This document shows, in pieces, positions 34,980-43,245 of a stretch of 64,000 nucleotides of DNA. The notes below the pieces were generated by a model. That model made no database searches. It had not been told where the DNA came from and worked only from the letters and a program-made list of their open reading frames with translations. Both the position numbers and the translations under genes were made by a program. The DNA lies in NCBI RefSeq assembly GCF_900115825.1, contig NZ_FOXW01000001.1, positions 186,001 through 250,000 of the forward strand, read 5' to 3'. The stretch's first letter is position 1, and the number at the start of each line of letters is the position of its first letter. The DNA is from Desemzia incerta. Its GTDB lineage: Bacteria > Bacillota > Bacilli > Lactobacillales > Carnobacteriaceae.

Positions 34980-35360
34980 ATGTATATTGAACATATCGCA
35001 TTATGGGTAAAGGACTTGGAAGCAGCAAGAGATTTTTACTGCGATTATTTTGGCGCTGTTTCAAATGATGTATACCACAACCCTACTAAAGGCTTCAAAT
35101 CTTACTTTTTAACATTTGAAAAAGGAGCTCGATTGGAATTGATGTCGCGTACAGATGTGACAGAAGCTCATGAACCAGCAATGTTAGGATGGGCACATCT
35201 GACGATTTCAGTAGGCAGTAAAGAAAAAGTAGATCAACTAACAGAACAATTGATCCAAGACGGCTACCGCTGTCAAGGACAGCCACGCACAACAGGTGAT
35301 GGTTATTATGAAAGTGTGATCGAAGATCCTGAAGGGAATTGGATAGAGATCACAAAATAG
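34980..35360 (+). CDS. VOC-superfamily protein (glyoxalase/bleomycin-resistance fold), copy 1
   Basis: The 126-residue protein has paired beta-alpha-beta-beta-beta modules: [20 protein letters not shown] at the N-terminus and [19 protein letters not shown], then [18 protein letters not shown] at the C-terminus. The metal-ligand positions include H5 and E122-like residues. AGGAGAG precedes ATG 34980. It is about 90% identical to the product of 42865-43245. Functions in this superfamily range from glyoxalase to antibiotic resistance, so no substrate is assigned. Confidence 0.9.
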
Positions 35361-35551: not shown

Positions 35552-35561
35552 GTATTTCAGC

Positions 35562-37385
35562 TTATTTTATTGAGTCTAAATAATTTTGATAAAACTCTTC
35601 TACTTTAGCTGGATCAGCTACTAGTTCATTTCCAGTGTCTACTAATGGGCTAACCGTAGAATAAGCTTTCAATTTTAACCCATCATAAGCAGCGCTGAGT
35701 TCATCTTGGTTGATGGAGTAAAGAATCGATTTGCGCAAATCAGCACTGACAGAAACCTCACGTCCGTTGGCATTAAACAGCATATAAGTTACACCGTTGC
35801 TTGGCATACTTTGTAACGATAAACTGTCTTCTCCTTCAACAACGTCATATTTTGTTTCATCTAACCCAGCTAACAAGTGAATCTCGCCAGAACGTAAGGC
35901 AGACAAAGCACTATCTGCATCTCCGATGAAACGAACCGTTACGTTAGCGATTTGAGCGGCATGTTCTGTGCCAGCCATGTAAGCAGGATTTTTTTGGAAT
36001 GTAGCTTCATAATCATTTTTCTGAGTCATGATATAAGGTCCACTAGCGTACAAATGATTGTCGTATGTTTCGCCTTCTGTTACGGCTCTTTGATCACCAT
36101 AAGGAATGTCAGTAGAGATGTCAAAGTTTTCCACATCATATGTGTTGATGCTTTCAACTTGCTCTTGTGAGACGATTCCAGCAGATTGGTGTGCAAGATA
36201 ATTCAAGACTTGTGGAAATGGTTCTGTAGTGGTCACTTTAACAACTTGGTATTGACCTGAAGCATTATCGACTTGCGCTGCATCTTCTACAACACTAGCA
36301 ATAGGAGACTCTAAATTAGCCTCTAAAGCTTCTTTGACAGTTCCGTTTCCATCAGATAAAGAAGCATTTTCAAGTTCCGCAAGATCGGTAACTAAACTAA
36401 CTGAATCAATGTGCTCATGTAAACTGTATGTCCGGTGATCTGGAACAGAGTTGGGATCTTTAGCACGATTCAGTGAGAAAACAGCATCTTGTCCACTGAC
36501 CATTTTGCCAGTATCAACGGCTTGGTCATCTTCAACGGCTGCGAAATTAATATCGTCGCGTAAAATGAAATAGTAATCTGAATTACCTTCTGCAATCGCA
36601 TGGTTGTAACTCAAAGAACCATCAGAAACCACTTGGTCATCATCTGTTAAATTTACTAATCGGACATACATATTAGTATTCAATTGGTTGATTGATCCAT
36701 CATTGCCTTTGATAGGGTCTAATGAAGTCAAATCACCTATTTGTTGCGTCAATATTAATGGTTCTGTGTCGTTTGAAGCAGTTTCATTAAATTGTACCGT
36801 TTCCCAAGGGAAAGCACGTGATTTTGCTAGGCGAATAGAATCTGGGTTTAAAAGGTCTTGATTAAATGCTTGAGCTTTTAAAGAAGTATAAAGCGGGACG
36901 ATATAAGCATTTTCGGTAACTAAAACATCTTCTAATTCTTTATATGTTTCGGTATATTCGTCAGAAGTTTGCAAAGCTGCTTCATTGATCAAAGCATCTA
37001 CTTCACTATTAGACAGATCGCTATTGTCACCGTCTGTGGTAAATAAAGAACGAACAGCATAATCCGGGTTTCCGGTTACCGTTGTCCAACTTGAAATAGC
37101 TAGGTCATAATTACCAGCTTCTTTTTGTGTTTGGAAACTAGCGTAATCTGGCTGCGTGTTCAAGGTAACATCGAAACCATTTTTGATCAATTGATCTCTA
37201 ACAATATTCATGTCGGTTTCATTGCTTGAAGACCCTAGTAATTCAATGGTCGTTTTTTCCGTTGTTTCACCCGTGGAAACATCAGAATTGTCATTGTTTG
37301 CTTGTTCTTCTGTTTGAACATTACAAGCCGCTAATAAAATCACACTAGTGGTAAGAGTTAGGAAAGATAATAATCGTTTTTTCAT
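35562..37385 (-). CDS. Peptide-binding lipoprotein of ABC importer, apparently circularly permuted
   Basis: The 607-residue protein starts with a signal peptide and lipobox LAAC (Cys21). In canonical SBP_bac_5 proteins the segment with LDP and the N-lobe comes first. Here residues about 46-199 instead resemble the usual C-terminal part (DQLIKNGFDVTLNTQPDY, NYDLAISSWTTVTGNPDY, SNSEVDALINEA, ENAYIVPLYTSLKAQAF). Residues about 209-607 resemble the usual N-terminal part (LTQQIGDLTSLDPIKGNDGS, YYFILRDDINF, YASGPYIMTQKNDYEATFQK, LRKSILYSINQDELSAAYDG) and stop where the other segment would begin. The protein should still fold as a two-lobe binding protein. It is the last gene of the T-box-led operon. 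Confidence 0.87.
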   Translation of the reverse strand: MKKRLLSFLTLTTSVILLAACNVQTEEQANNDNSDVSTGETTEKTTIELLGSSSNETDMNIVRDQLIKNGFDVTLNTQPDYASFQTQKEAGNYDLAISSWTTVTGNPDYAVRSLFTTDGDNSDLSNSEVDALINEAALQTSDEYTETYKELEDVLVTENAYIVPLYTSLKAQAFNQDLLNPDSIRLAKSRAFPWETVQFNETASNDTEPLILTQQIGDLTSLDPIKGNDGSINQLNTNMYVRLVNLTDDDQVVSDGSLSYNHAIAEGNSDYYFILRDDINFAAVEDDQAVDTGKMVSGQDAVFSLNRAKDPNSVPDHRTYSLHEHIDSVSLVTDLAELENASLSDGNGTVKEALEANLESPIASVVEDAAQVDNASGQYQVVKVTTTEPFPQVLNYLAHQSAGIVSQEQVESINTYDVENFDISTDIPYGDQRAVTEGETYDNHLYASGPYIMTQKNDYEATFQKNPAYMAGTEHAAQIANVTVRFIGDADSALSALRSGEIHLLAGLDETKYDVVEGEDSLSLQSMPSNGVTYMLFNANGREVSVSADLRKSILYSINQDELSAAYDGLKLKAYSTVSPLVDTGNELVADPAKVEEFYQNYLDSIK

Positions 37386-37440
37386 TGTACTTAACCTCCA
37401 AATTTTTTTGTTGTGAGAAAATAAAGATAAAGAATACCGG

Positions 37441-38904
37441 TTAGTTTAATTTTGGATCAGTTGCATCTCGAATACCGTCTCCTAAGAAATTAAAGGATAA
37501 AACAAGTAAGATAATAGCTAAGCCTGGATAAATAGCCAAATAGGGATTGGTTTCTAAATATTGGCTGCCGATTCTTAAAATATTTCCCCATTCTGGGATG
37601 TGTGCTTCCACACCGAGTCCAAGATAACTTAAGCTACTTGTCGAGATAACAGCAGTCCCAATAGTTAACGTTGAACGCACGATCATTGGAGCGATAGCAT
37701 TTGGAATAACATGCCTGGAGATGATTCGGCTGTTTGTCTGCCCTAAAGCTCGAGCAGATTCAATGTATTCCAAGTTGCTGACTTGCATCACATTTGCGCG
37801 CATCGTTCTAGCGTAAGAGGGAATCGACCCTAAACTTAATGCAATGATCAAGTTCGTTGTTGAAGCTCCAAATGAGGCTATGATCGTAATGGCTAACAGC
37901 ATGCCGGGAATGGCGTACAGCACATCCAACAATCGCATGATCACGTTATCAGTCTTACGGCCGTAAAAGCCCGATACTGCGCCTAAAATTCCGCCAACTA
38001 CTAAAGGAATAGCTGTTGCAATCAACCCAACCGATAGTGAAATTTGAGTACCATAAACAATTCTTGTAAAAACATCGCGCCCATAATTATCCGTCCCAAA
38101 TGGATAACGTAAAGAAGGGGTTTGTAAAATAGAACTGTAATCATTTTGAACAGCAAAAGAATAACTAAACGTCCAATTACAAGTAACAGCTAACATAATT
38201 AAGAAAGCAATGAACAGCAGTCCGAGCAAAGCAGCTTGGTTTTTAATCAGCTTTTCACGAATACTTGTCTGACGTTTTCCCATATGATCGGGTTTGTTGT
38301 TTTGATAAAAAGAAGCTGCTACAAAAAAGACGAGTATATTTCCTGTAAGACCAGTCAATGCAAGAATGAATAAGGTTATTTTTTGAGTTGTTGGTTTCCA
38401 TTCAAACCATTTCTGCCCAAAAGCTAAAACGAAGCTGTGAAAGAGCAAGATAACTATCATGAGGTAAAATAACGGTAGAAAAGTGTTCGATACAAACGGC
38501 TTAAATAGGTTCAAAGCCGTTACAGCAATGACCAGTACATCAACTAATACCATATAAATTGAATAAATCAGACCAGTCGTTAGTGTTTTTTTAAACGTGG
38601 TGATTCCTGAAATAAAAGCAAAGATATTCCCTACTAAAAGACTAGCCATCAAAATCAACGAGCTGACTTTAATGGAAGAAAGGTTTATTTCAACATGAAA
38701 ATCATCTTTTTTAACTGTTTGGAGCAATTTTTGATGCACTAGGCTGATGAATAAATTCAAGATACCTATTCCCAGAATCACCGGTTTGAACCCTAATGGT
38801 TGAAATTGAATACTTAGCAGTATCCATAATGCAGCATAGCCCCAAGTCAATCCGTTGTTGAAACGGATTTGTTGGTAAATTAAATTTGTTTGATAGGATC
38901 TCAC
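37441..38904 (-). CDS. Peptide ABC importer permease (DppC/OppC type) with long N-terminal membrane extension
   Basis: The 487-residue protein has a normal OppC/DppC core from about residue 215: an N-terminal helix, FGTDNYGRDVFTRIVYG, and the EAA loop YIESARALGQTNSRIISRHV. The preceding ~200 residues add about five or six hydrophobic segments not found in normal OppC (about 300 residues). The start is GTG 38904, with AGGTGAC upstream and only 17 nt from the dppB-type gene. The extension has no recognisable domain. The frame reads through without interruption, so this is a true fusion and not an assembly artefact at this level. Confidence 0.88.
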   Translation of the reverse strand: MRSYQTNLIYQQIRFNNGLTWGYAALWILLSIQFQPLGFKPVILGIGILNLFISLVHQKLLQTVKKDDFHVEINLSSIKVSSLILMASLLVGNIFAFISGITTFKKTLTTGLIYSIYMVLVDVLVIAVTALNLFKPFVSNTFLPLFYLMIVILLFHSFVLAFGQKWFEWKPTTQKITLFILALTGLTGNILVFFVAASFYQNNKPDHMGKRQTSIREKLIKNQAALLGLLFIAFLIMLAVTCNWTFSYSFAVQNDYSSILQTPSLRYPFGTDNYGRDVFTRIVYGTQISLSVGLIATAIPLVVGGILGAVSGFYGRKTDNVIMRLLDVLYAIPGMLLAITIIASFGASTTNLIIALSLGSIPSYARTMRANVMQVSNLEYIESARALGQTNSRIISRHVIPNAIAPMIVRSTLTIGTAVISTSSLSYLGLGVEAHIPEWGNILRIGSQYLETNPYLAIYPGLAIILLVLSFNFLGDGIRDATDPKLN

Positions 38905-38921
38905 TTAAAAGTCACCTGCTT

Positions 38922-40352
38922 TCATCGTCCGCTTTTGATTCGGGAACGAATTCTTGGATCAATAAAACTGTAAAGTAAGTCAATAAATACGTTGACGATG
39001 GATAAGATAATCGCGATATAAACGACCCCACCCATAACACTTGGAATATCTGGGACAAATTGTTTGTCAACGATGTAGCTTCCCACACCATTGATGTTAA
39101 ATACTTTTTCCGTAACAGAGGAGCCGCCAAGCATGCCGCCAAATTGTAAACCAATGATTGTCACGATAGGAATCAAGGCATTCGGTACAGCATGTCGAAG
39201 AATGACTCTTCTATTTGAGAGTCCTTTTGCTCGGGCTGTCAAAATGTAATCCTCATTGATGACCTCCAGTGTCGATGAACGAGTCATACGAGCGACGGAA
39301 GCCATCAAGCCCGTTCCAAGAACAACGGCTGGCATAATAAGAGAAGCGATGTTGTCTGCATTGTAAGTAGCCGGCAGCCAACCCAAGTTAATGGAAAAGG
39401 TTAAAATAAAAATCAATCCTTGCCAGAAACTAGGAATGGATATTCCGATCAAAGCGATTAACATGAAAAGATGATCGAAAGTTGTATTGGCTTTAACCGC
39501 AGCATAAATTCCAGCAGGGAAAGCAACTGCAATGGAAAGTATCAAAGCAAATAAGGTCAATTGTAAAGTGACAGGAAAGCGGCGCATGATAGTTGTTACG
39601 ACACGCTCATTTCCTTCAAAAGCATTGCCTAGATCAAAAGTAAAAATGCCTTTGATGGTTCTGCCTAATTGAGTGAGATAAGGGTCATCCAACCCATGAA
39701 CAGCATTAAAATTAACGATTTGTTCAGGTGTTGCTTGTTCCCCTAAAATATTCGTCGCTGAATCGGAAGGCGACAAATACAATAATGTAAAGACAATAAT
39801 GGTGACTCCGATAATAACGAACACCATCATAACTAAACGATTAACGATGTAGCGCAAAGTAGGAATGGATACGACCAATAATAGAAAATACATAGGAAAA
39901 CCTAGAAGTAAAGATAGTACAAACCCAAGAGGTTGTTCTAACCAGTGTGCGGTTTCATTCAAGAAACTCGGCTGCTCGCGGTTTGACTCTTTGTAATAAG
40001 CTTCCATGCGTTCCTGTATTTCTTTCTGGTAACCCACTCGATAAAGTTCGTTGCCCTTTTTTTCCATCTGTGCTTGTGAGCTCTGTTGTTTCAGAAAAGC
40101 AACCTTCCGTTTTTCTTGGGCCCGAAGCTTGTCTTTTAAAGATGTTGCCGCACCGCTTTCTTCAAATTCAGATTTGATTTCATGCTCCACAGTGCGTTTT
40201 TCAAAAGGTTGGCTTTTTAGTAAGTAGCGGATGAGCACAAGAAGCTGAAAGGGGAAGCTGAGTAAACATAATCCTAAAGCGATAAAGGGTTGCTGTGAAG
40301 CTTCCTTATAAGATTGACTGACTTTTTGCAGCCAGTTTGATTTGGTGTGCAT
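38922..40352 (-). CDS. Peptide ABC importer permease (DppB/OppB type) with N-terminal extension
   Basis: The 476-residue protein has an OppB/DppB core from about residue 165 (LRYIVNRLVMMVFVIIGVTI, then the EAA loop YILTARAKGLSNRRVILRHA). The first 160 residues are extra: a membrane segment at about 22-45, a charged, probably coiled region at about 50-130 rich in Lys, Glu and Gln, and a second membrane segment at about 142-162. The ATG follows GGAGGAAA. It is the first gene of the operon behind the T-box leader, and pairs with the next permease. Confidence 0.88.
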   Translation of the reverse strand: MHTKSNWLQKVSQSYKEASQQPFIALGLCLLSFPFQLLVLIRYLLKSQPFEKRTVEHEIKSEFEESGAATSLKDKLRAQEKRKVAFLKQQSSQAQMEKKGNELYRVGYQKEIQERMEAYYKESNREQPSFLNETAHWLEQPLGFVLSLLLGFPMYFLLLVVSIPTLRYIVNRLVMMVFVIIGVTIIVFTLLYLSPSDSATNILGEQATPEQIVNFNAVHGLDDPYLTQLGRTIKGIFTFDLGNAFEGNERVVTTIMRRFPVTLQLTLFALILSIAVAFPAGIYAAVKANTTFDHLFMLIALIGISIPSFWQGLIFILTFSINLGWLPATYNADNIASLIMPAVVLGTGLMASVARMTRSSTLEVINEDYILTARAKGLSNRRVILRHAVPNALIPIVTIIGLQFGGMLGGSSVTEKVFNINGVGSYIVDKQFVPDIPSVMGGVVYIAIILSIVNVFIDLLYSFIDPRIRSRIKSGR

Positions 40353-40418
40353 GCTATTTCCTCCTTCCAGTTATTTTAGTTGTCAAAGATTCGTTAGACA
40401 TGTTTTCTGAAAAATATA

Positions 40419-40735
40419 CAAAAAAAGCCCTTAAATGACTCTTCATCGAATGAAGAGCTATTTAAGGGTAAAATGCACTATTTTACGGTTCCACCTTAAT
40501 GGGTACGAAGAAAAAAGAACTGCCATTCTTGTTTTCTTTGTATGCTTGATTCGGTACGGCGCCATATCATTCAGACGGGTATACCGATTTGCTGTAACGG
40601 GCAACCCCGATATGATCTAAAGAATCATTCCCTCAACCATACAACTCCAAGATGCACTTCCAAGTTTTCTTCTAGATCCCTTTCCACCAGACGGGACTCT
40701 CTATACTATCATCCAACTTGTACTTTTCTTTTCAT
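40419..40735 (-). promoter_or_regulatory. T-box riboswitch, predicted tRNA-Cys specific
   Basis: Read on the minus strand, the leader contains the T-box core AAGGTGGAACCG (40486-40497) and then a strong terminator hairpin with CCCTTAAAT / ATTTAAGGG arms around a GCTCTTCAT loop stem and a T7 tract (40420-40468). Upstream is a Stem I segment with AGAGAGTCCCG near its top and the specifier-loop context GAAG-TGC-ATCTTGGAG; the specifier TGC (40654-40656) is a Cys codon. The antiterminator bulge UGGA would pair with UCCA, matching the U73 discriminator of tRNA-Cys. Uncharged tRNA-Cys should therefore switch on the importer operon. Confidence 0.85.
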
Positions 40736-40772
40736 AGTTTTTCAGATGTGTTCAATTGTCTAACTAGCCATA

Positions 40773-40801
40773 AATATAGCAAACGCTCTTATATTCGTCA
40801 A
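40773..40801 (-). promoter_or_regulatory. Promoter of the T-box-led importer operon
   Basis: On the minus strand TTGACG (40796-40801) and TATATT (40773-40778) are separated by 17 bp, a good sigma-A promoter. Transcription would start near 40766, leaving a leader of about 410 nt. Confidence 0.7.
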
Positions 40802-40811
40802 GCGAATATAA
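40789..40811. promoter_or_regulatory. Palindrome overlapping the -35 of the importer promoter
   Basis: TTATATTCG and CGAATATAA are perfect 9-bp arms around TCAAG, covering the -35 element. It may be an operator. It could alternatively be a weak hairpin with the following A/T run. Confidence 0.45.
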
Positions 40812-40904
40812 AAAAAACTTTTATTTAGTAAGCGACAGGGGTTTATTTTTAAAATGAATCGTGTTACATTGCTAAGCAAAAGGACTGCCGTTCACTACCA
40901 AGAT

Positions 40905-40930
40905 CAATCTTAATGGTATAATTAAGATTG
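40905..40930 (+). promoter_or_regulatory. Extended -10 promoter inside a perfect 9-bp palindrome, upstream of the fused ATPase gene
   Basis: CAATCTTAA and TTAAGATTG are perfect inverted arms around an 8-nt centre. The extended -10 TGGTATAAT (40914-40922) lies in the middle, 40 nt before the ATPase start. A dimeric repressor bound here would block transcription. No -35 consensus is seen. Confidence 0.55.
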
Positions 40931-40961
40931 GTTTCGGTTAAAAATAGTAAAGGAGTCAATT

Positions 40962-42707
40962 ATGGAAACTCTATTGAATGTAACTAATTTGTCTGTCTCT
41001 TTTACGACAGGCAGCAACACACAGCAAGTCACATCTGAAGTTTCTTTCTCAGTTCAAAAAGGAGAAACGATTGGAATTGTTGGCGAATCTGGCAGTGGAA
41101 AAAGTGTAACGGCTCGCTCTATTATGGGGCTGTTAGCCCCAAACGCATATGTTCATCCTGAGAGCAATATTGTATTTATGGGAAAGAACTTACTTAACAT
41201 GACTGAACGAAAAATGCAGGAAATACGTGGGAAAGATATCGGGATGATCTTTCAAGATCCGATGACTTCATTGAACCCAACGATGACAGTTGGCAGCCAA
41301 ATTACGGAGACTCTTCTTTTTCATGAAAAACTATCAAAAAAAGAAGCAGAAGCCCAAGCAAAAGATATTATGCGTCATGTTGGAATAACTGATGTAGATG
41401 TGCGGTACAAACAATACGCCCATGAATTTTCAGGCGGTATGCGTCAAAGGATGATGATTGCTTTAGCGTTAGTCTGCAAGCCGGCATTATTGATTGCAGA
41501 TGAACCGACAACAGCGTTGGATGTGACCATTCAAGCACAAATTTTAGATTTACTGAAAGAGGTTCAAGAGAAATTTGGGACAGCGATTATTTTGATCACT
41601 CATGATTTTGGCGTTGTGGCAAATATGTGCGACCAAGTCCTTGTTATGAAAAACGGGCAAGTAGTAGAAACGGGCGAAACAAAAGACGTTTTTCAGCACC
41701 CAAAAGAAACGTATACTAAAATGCTTCTAGCAGCCATTCCAAATTTGCATAAAGAAAAGACAGCACAACAGAAGAAAAAACTTGCAGAAATCCATTCAGG
41801 AAAACGAGAAAAACTCCTTGAAATATCTCATTTAGAAAAACATTTCCCATTAGGCAAAACAGGTCTGTTGAAAGCTGTGGATGATATCAGCTTTGCCATT
41901 TACGAAGGAGAAACTCTAGGCTTAGTTGGAGAGTCGGGTTCTGGAAAGTCTACTACTGGGCGAACGATTCTTCGTTTACATGAAGCGACTGGCGGAGAAA
42001 CTTTGTATAAAGGCTTTGACTTGAACCATCTGTCTCCAAAAGAATTAAAAACCATGCGCAAACACATGCAGATTATTTTTCAAGATCCTTACGCTTCCTT
42101 AAATCCACGAATGAAAATTCAAGATATTATTGGAGAAGCTTTGGATATTCACCACTTAGCAAAAAATAAGAAAAAACGAAATGAAAAAGTAGCAGAATTG
42201 CTGCGTTTAGTTGGGTTGGATGAAATATTTGCACAACGTTACCCACATGAATTCTCAGGAGGGCAGAGGCAGCGGGTTGGTATTGCGCGCGCTTTAGCAG
42301 TAGATCCTGCATTTATTGTGCTCGATGAGCCATTGTCTGCTTTAGATGCTTCTATTCAAACTCAAATTGTGGAACTTTTAGAAGAGTTACAAGAAAAATT
42401 AGGATTGACCTATTTGTTTATTGCCCATGATTTAGCCATGGTCAAGCAGATATCAGATCGAGTAGCTGTGATGTACAATGGCCAAATCGTAGAGCTGGCG
42501 GATGCGGAAGAATTATTTTCTAACCCTATTCATCCGTATACGAAAAAATTGTTGTCGGCTATTCCAGTTCCAGATCCAGTTTATGAGACTTCTAAAAAAA
42601 TGACGAGTTTAGTGACCGATGAAAAAGCTGACTTTTATCCGAAAAATAGTGTCTTTAAAGAAGTTGCTGCTCATCATTGGGTAGCACAAACAGCTGAAAG
42701 GGAATAA
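40962..42707 (+). CDS. Fused double ATPase of a peptide-type ABC importer (DppD-DppF/GsiA-like)
   Basis: The 581-residue protein carries two complete ABC modules. Module 1 (about 1-270) has [28 protein letters not shown] and [12 protein letters not shown]; module 2 (about 285-560) has [29 protein letters not shown] and [12 protein letters not shown]. Both end with the oligopeptide-family C-terminal region ([19 protein letters not shown]). This architecture is found in GsiA and YejF-type importers. It diverges from the importer operon, presumably supplying its ATPase. AAAGGAG precedes the ATG. Unlike the other operon, no T-box is seen here. Confidence 0.93.
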
Positions 42708-42864
42708 AATGGCTAGATAGATATGAGGTTAAGCAACAAGAAAAAATGGTCCGCTCTAATCATCAAAGAAGATTGTCGTTGTTTTCTAACAAAAATCAGC
42801 GATAATTTTTTTGGAGCGCTTTCTTATATGAAATTAAAAATCAGGATAAAGGAGAGGTGTCGGC

Positions 42865-43245
42865 ATGCACATCGAACATACAGCACTATGGGTAAAAGAT
42901 TTAGAAGTAACAAAAGATTTCTACTGCAATTATTTTGGAGCTGTTTCAAATGATGTTTACCACAACCCTACAAAAGGATTTAAATCTTATTTTCTAACAT
43001 TTGCGGAAGGTGCTCGATTGGAATTGATGACGCGTACAGATGTGACAGAAGCTCATGAACCAGCAATGTTAGGATGGGCACATCTGGCGATTTCAGTAGG
43101 CAGTAAAGAAAAAGTAGATCAACTGACAGAACAATTGATCCAAGACGGCTACCACTGTCAAGGACAGCCACGCACAACAGGTGATGGTTATTATGAAAGT
43201 GTGATCGAAGATCCTGAAGGGAATTGGTTAGAGATTACAGTGTAA
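42865..43245 (+). CDS. VOC-superfamily protein, copy 2
   Basis: This 126-residue protein is nearly identical to the product of 34980-35360 (for example [19 protein letters not shown] and [17 protein letters not shown] are shared), differing at about a dozen positions. GAGAGGTG precedes the ATG. The last ~160 nt of the two genes differ at only a few bases at DNA level, pointing to recent duplication or gene conversion. Its activity is unknown. Confidence 0.9.

Follow-up and report, generated by a model that had tools for sequence, protein, structure and literature searches.

The window, i.e., the 64,000-nucleotide stretch of Desemzia incerta DNA analyzed here, carries on its minus strand (35562-37385) a continuous open reading frame for a 607-residue solute-binding lipoprotein (SBP). 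Its translation begins with a signal peptide and the lipobox LAAC at Cys21 (residues 1–21; 37323..37385, minus strand, as are all parts of the gene). A disordered, N/S/T/E-rich tether leads from the lipidated cysteine to the first strand (residues 22–43; 37257..37322), and residues 1–41 were modeled with a pLDDT below 50. The segment that follows (residues 44–180; 36846..37256) corresponds, from sequence and structure comparison, to what is normally the C-terminal part of SBP_bac_5 proteins. It is the second half of lobe II and terminates in a long crossing strand (162–175). A bridge with a conserved SKSRAxxW motif (residues 181–201; 36783..36845) lies between the ancestral C- and N-termini. 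Lobe I comes next as a single contiguous stretch (residues about 202–529; 35799..36782), which holds the ancestral N-terminus, the motif LDPIKGND (222–229) and a further long crossing strand (522–537). Residues from about 530 to 607 (35565..35798) close the chain and make up the first half of lobe II, which stops where the moved segment would usually start. The lobe boundaries given here are those predicted from DppA numbering.

An earlier note on this DNA had described a peptide-binding lipoprotein with an apparent circular permutation, in an uninterrupted frame, with the C-terminal-type segment directly behind the lipobox and LDPIKGND only at about residue 222. The reading frame, the lipobox and the position of the motif all agree with this description. 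Membership in the SBP_bac_5 family is clear from the PF00496 score (116.3 bits vs a gathering threshold of 32.4), and the profile match splits into two stretches, the better of which places residues 269–588 on profile positions 17–257. In the canonical family the N-terminal part comes first; here the order is reversed, and we class the protein as a permuted relative of SBP_bac_5 rather than as a canonical member. In native order, residues 44–165 aligned with chain positions 364–489 of PDB entry 5u4o and residues 437–581 with positions 190–332. After residues 44–199 had been moved behind residues 200–607, a single continuous match to 5u4o (190–489) ran through the join, and scores rose from 41.7 to 50.9 bits for 5u4o and from 31.3 to 42.1 bits for GsiB (1uqw).

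We also rotated the mature sequence in five-residue steps against a hidden Markov model (HMM) built from 21 canonical relatives. As a single domain, the native order reached at best 81 bits, and many rotations in canonical order reached 128–130 bits. On the HMM, the moved part starts at position 396 and the native C-terminus falls immediately ahead of it, so nothing large is missing or doubled, and the proposal that the chain stops at the usual starting point of the moved segment was borne out. Residues 202–607 thus represent the N-terminal two thirds of DppA/GsiB-type proteins and residues 43–180 their C-terminal segment, the two parts being complementary with a cut at DppA residue 342/343. 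No full C-terminal lobe follows residue 550, as residues 550–607 correspond to about DppA 282–343.

An AlphaFold2 model calculated with 24 family members (pLDDT 80.4, pTM 0.79) was confident for both the moved segment and the remainder. The structure aligner keeps chain order, so that only one side of a permutation can match. It placed model residues 208–607 on DppA (1dpp) 1–343 (Z 20.1, rmsd 4.6, 324 aligned), and residues 203–607 on GsiB (1uqw; Z 20.1, rmsd 2.8, 312 aligned). The predicted fold is hence of the two-lobed DppA/OppA type, with the moved segment mapping only at Z 4.2, and the fold matches, among those listed, were SBP_bac_5 structures. When residues 43–203 were folded in isolation, the prediction was weaker (pLDDT 70.5, pTM 0.43). 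Residues 43–163 of this isolated segment mapped to DppA 342–473 (Z 4.2) and to 5u4o 361–488, i.e., to the complement of the main match; whole-chain rmsd was about 13 Å for the isolated-segment matches, which suggests that the moved segment is no self-standing domain, and only the mapped ranges were used.

In canonical SBP_bac_5 proteins, lobe II is an insertion within lobe I, and the lipid tether is normally on lobe I. From published DppA/OppA lobe limits and the two long strands (162–175 and 522–537) we infer the opposite arrangement, in which lobe I would be formed by the contiguous middle of the chain (about 169–529 including the bridge 181–201) and lobe II by both ends. Because lobe II is built from both chain ends, the lipid tether would leave from lobe II. 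The SBP would fold into the usual two-lobed cleft, inside out in sequence, with the old termini joined by residues 181–201. Nothing was found that favors the alternatives, a truncated SBP preceded by an unrelated domain or the scar of a gene rearrangement; the isolated segment folds poorly, but half a lobe would do so too. Residues 44–165 match C-terminal SBP segments in sequence as well as in fold, and the order is kept in more than 50 genomes; we regard an explanation without permutation as having practically no chance of being correct.

Full-length relatives in the same order were found in five related genomes and on 51 contigs of GTDB species (60–78% identity) from Carnobacteriaceae, Aerococcaceae, Paenibacillus, Planococcaceae and Bacillaceae. 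Among 399 sampled Bacilli genomes, 35 encoded the permuted protein, full length in all but one. The exception (genome G398, L115:6186-6833) keeps only the C-terminal third and is probably a broken copy. A sample of the whole phylum added no members outside Bacilli; one metagenome-assembled 'Tissierellia' contig has the cassette. With the un-permuted sequence as query, no close un-permuted parent was found in 300 Bacilli genomes. In this search, family members were always split into two pieces at the join; among canonical proteins that matched in one piece, the best, in genome G266, was only 32% identical. A tree was calculated from 56 proteins, 33 of them permuted in nature, after un-permuting in silico. 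All 33 fell on one side of a branch with support 100/100 and the canonical proteins outside, for which a single origin would be the simplest reading. The permuted SBP is an old family. Sequence, structure comparison, the conserved order across over 50 genomes and the single-clade tree together support a circularly permuted SBP_bac_5 lipoprotein and, in line with the earlier note, not a rearrangement scar.

The SBP gene is part of a transporter cassette. Upstream lie an OppC-type permease gene (37441..38904, minus strand) and an OppB-type permease gene (38922..40352, minus strand), followed by a divergent gene for a double ATPase, an OppD-OppF type fusion and the counterpart of GisA (40962..42707, plus strand). 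Nearly all carriers share this arrangement of a divergent fused ATPase and then permease B, permease C and permuted SBP. In one locus (L035) the ATPase gene is on the same strand as the permease and SBP genes, and in genome G433 (L116:6892-13792) it is split in two, the halves lying after the permease genes and before that of the permuted SBP. At their N-termini both permeases are extended by conserved regions, which measure about 165 residues in the OppB type and about 210 residues, with several hydrophobic segments, in the OppC type. The extensions matched no Pfam family, and the nearest canonical locus (G266) has permeases that lack them.

Two copies of a VOC/glyoxalase-type gene (34980-35279 and 42865-43164; 90% identity) form direct repeats around the cassette. 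A genome of the same genus (G001) has one VOC gene copy and no cassette at this place, so the cassette was either gained with a gene duplication or lost between the repeats. Two genomes from other genera of the family share with the window just the 7.1 kb cassette (35559-42709; 84% DNA identity), their surroundings being unshared, and the SBPs of these two genomes hardly differ. The cassette has likely moved horizontally in these two cases.

Between the divergent genes, upstream of the permease-SBP operon, we found a T-box leader (RF00230; 40461..40744, minus strand) that scored 95.4 bits against a gathering threshold of 93. Its specifier codon reads UGC for cysteine (40654..40656, minus strand) in the context GAAG-UGC-AUCUUGGAG, and its antiterminator bulge UGGAACC (within 40487-40495, minus strand) has the matching discriminator pairing. 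As controls, we read other leaders in the same way. The leader of a cysS-containing operon in the same genome reads GAAG-UGC-CUCUUGGAG, with a GAAGUGC context identical to that in the window; the tyrS leader gave UAC, and that of the genes for glycyl-tRNA synthetase (glyQS) gave GGC. UGC specifier and UGGAACC bulge are common to eight Carnobacteriaceae loci (the window and L033, L034, L036, L037, L038, L041 and L075), in which the base behind UGC is A or G. The T-box was recognized only in Carnobacteriaceae loci, and not in those of Paenibacillus and others. The window leader has the RF00230 match, specifier and bulge of known cysteine-type T-boxes; here it precedes an ABC transporter operon. 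From the specifier and the controls, uncharged tRNA-Cys is most likely the signal that would switch on the permease-SBP operon via the T-box in this genome and its relatives. A further T-box of the genome (G000:C8:33800-36700) lies ahead of an amino-acid-type binding lipoprotein gene.

The gene order of the cassette is that of the Staphylococcus aureus gisABCD-ggt locus, where gisA is divergent from gisBCD-ggt (Lensmire 2023, PMC10355420). Mutants in gis are impaired on reduced (GSH) or oxidized (GSSG) glutathione at low concentration and show reduced GSSG uptake (PMC10355420), and a gisD mutant behaves likewise (PMC12510641). To compare the SBP with GisD, we used one sampled locus (L114; genome of family f17, genus g36) in which a divergent ATPase gene is followed by genes for permease B, permease C, a permuted SBP and a γ-glutamyltranspeptidase (GGT; PF01019, 527 bits). 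From gene order and content we infer that this is a Staphylococcus-type gis locus and its SBP gene gisD. The apparent GisD is 38% identical to the window SBP, collinear over residues 3–597 in the same permuted order, and nests inside the permuted clade (support 100/100); both permeases of its locus are likewise extended. In contrast to the S. aureus operon, the window cassette lacks ggt, which lies about 70 kb away (G000:C6:291244), and the Cys T-box is a feature of the Carnobacteriaceae loci.

Automatic annotation names nickel or ordinary oligopeptides as the substrate, and the permease and ATPase profiles indeed range among nickel, glutathione and oligopeptide transporters. However, SBP and permease scores all stayed well under the equivalog cut-offs, so neither name is warranted, and both the Cys T-box and the resemblance of the locus to gis indicate sulfur. 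We hence consider such a ligand very improbable. The label "peptide-binding" of the earlier note likewise needs refining, as the family appears to include the GisD type and has a replaced ligand contact, and the operon here has a Cys-type T-box. In DppA, Asp408 holds the amino group of the ligand. The equivalent position is Val103 in all members of the permuted family, the apparent GisD included, and Ser in GsiB. Val103 would fit a ligand without an ordinary N-terminus at that site, which is only suggestive.

We therefore consider it likely that the window encodes a permuted GisD-type SBP which would import glutathione or a similar cysteine source, its operon being under the putative control of the tRNA-Cys T-box. 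Outside the cell, the SBP would probably catch a small peptide that contains cysteine, glutathione or one similar to it, and hand it to the two N-extended permeases, powered by the divergently encoded double ATPase. Another cysteine source, such as cystine-containing or γ-glutamyl peptides or S-conjugates, with glutathione confined to the staphylococcal branch, would also suit the Cys T-box and is unlikely, yet clearly less so than nickel or ordinary oligopeptides. The apparent GisD is on a long branch, with 69 of 194 otherwise near-invariant family positions changed, so "a cysteine source" is a safer description than glutathione itself and the ligand could differ; most carriers, moreover, have no ggt in the cassette. 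Against this, gene order, permutation and N-extended permeases are all as in gisABCD, and ggt is present somewhere in 30 of 35 carriers vs 216 of 364 non-carriers, a comparison confounded by kinship. Import of glutathione or a similar cysteine source remains our preferred reading. It is possible, although we rate it as rather doubtful, that the GisD branch is permuted throughout Bacilli, with its tether on the other lobe, and that the permease N-extensions co-arose to dock the permuted SBP.

In sequence and fold, GsiB of Escherichia coli (1uqw), DppA (1dpp) and OppA share the parts and the two-lobed architecture of the window SBP and are its best sequence matches; they differ by their unpermuted order and by a tether that is not on lobe II, and DppA has D408. 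No natural permutation of SBP_bac_5 was described in the literature searched, from which subscription journals were mostly absent, and the texts of PMC10355420 and PMC12510641 do not mention permutation ('permut' absent). The permutation in SBP_bac_5 is thus real, conserved and apparently unremarked so far. It accounts for homology searches that align GisD-type proteins only piecewise, and calls for caution, as templates and Pfam models misread these proteins. It also offers a natural experiment, in which the same importer fold has its lipid anchor and chain ends on the other lobe. Fully reported only from a small Staphylococcus clade, gis-like loci now extend to many Bacilli, and those of Carnobacteriaceae add a putative cysteine switch. 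A precedent for a natural circular permutation in a tethered ABC-transporter binding protein is the glucose-binding lipoprotein TpMglB-2 of Treponema pallidum (PMC4990184). TpMglB-2, a permuted protein of Type Ic / Cluster Bc, has a sugar-binding fold (Type I / Cluster B class); the fold matches listed for the window SBP are SBP_bac_5 structures. Its cut point is also a different one, and its family is unrelated.
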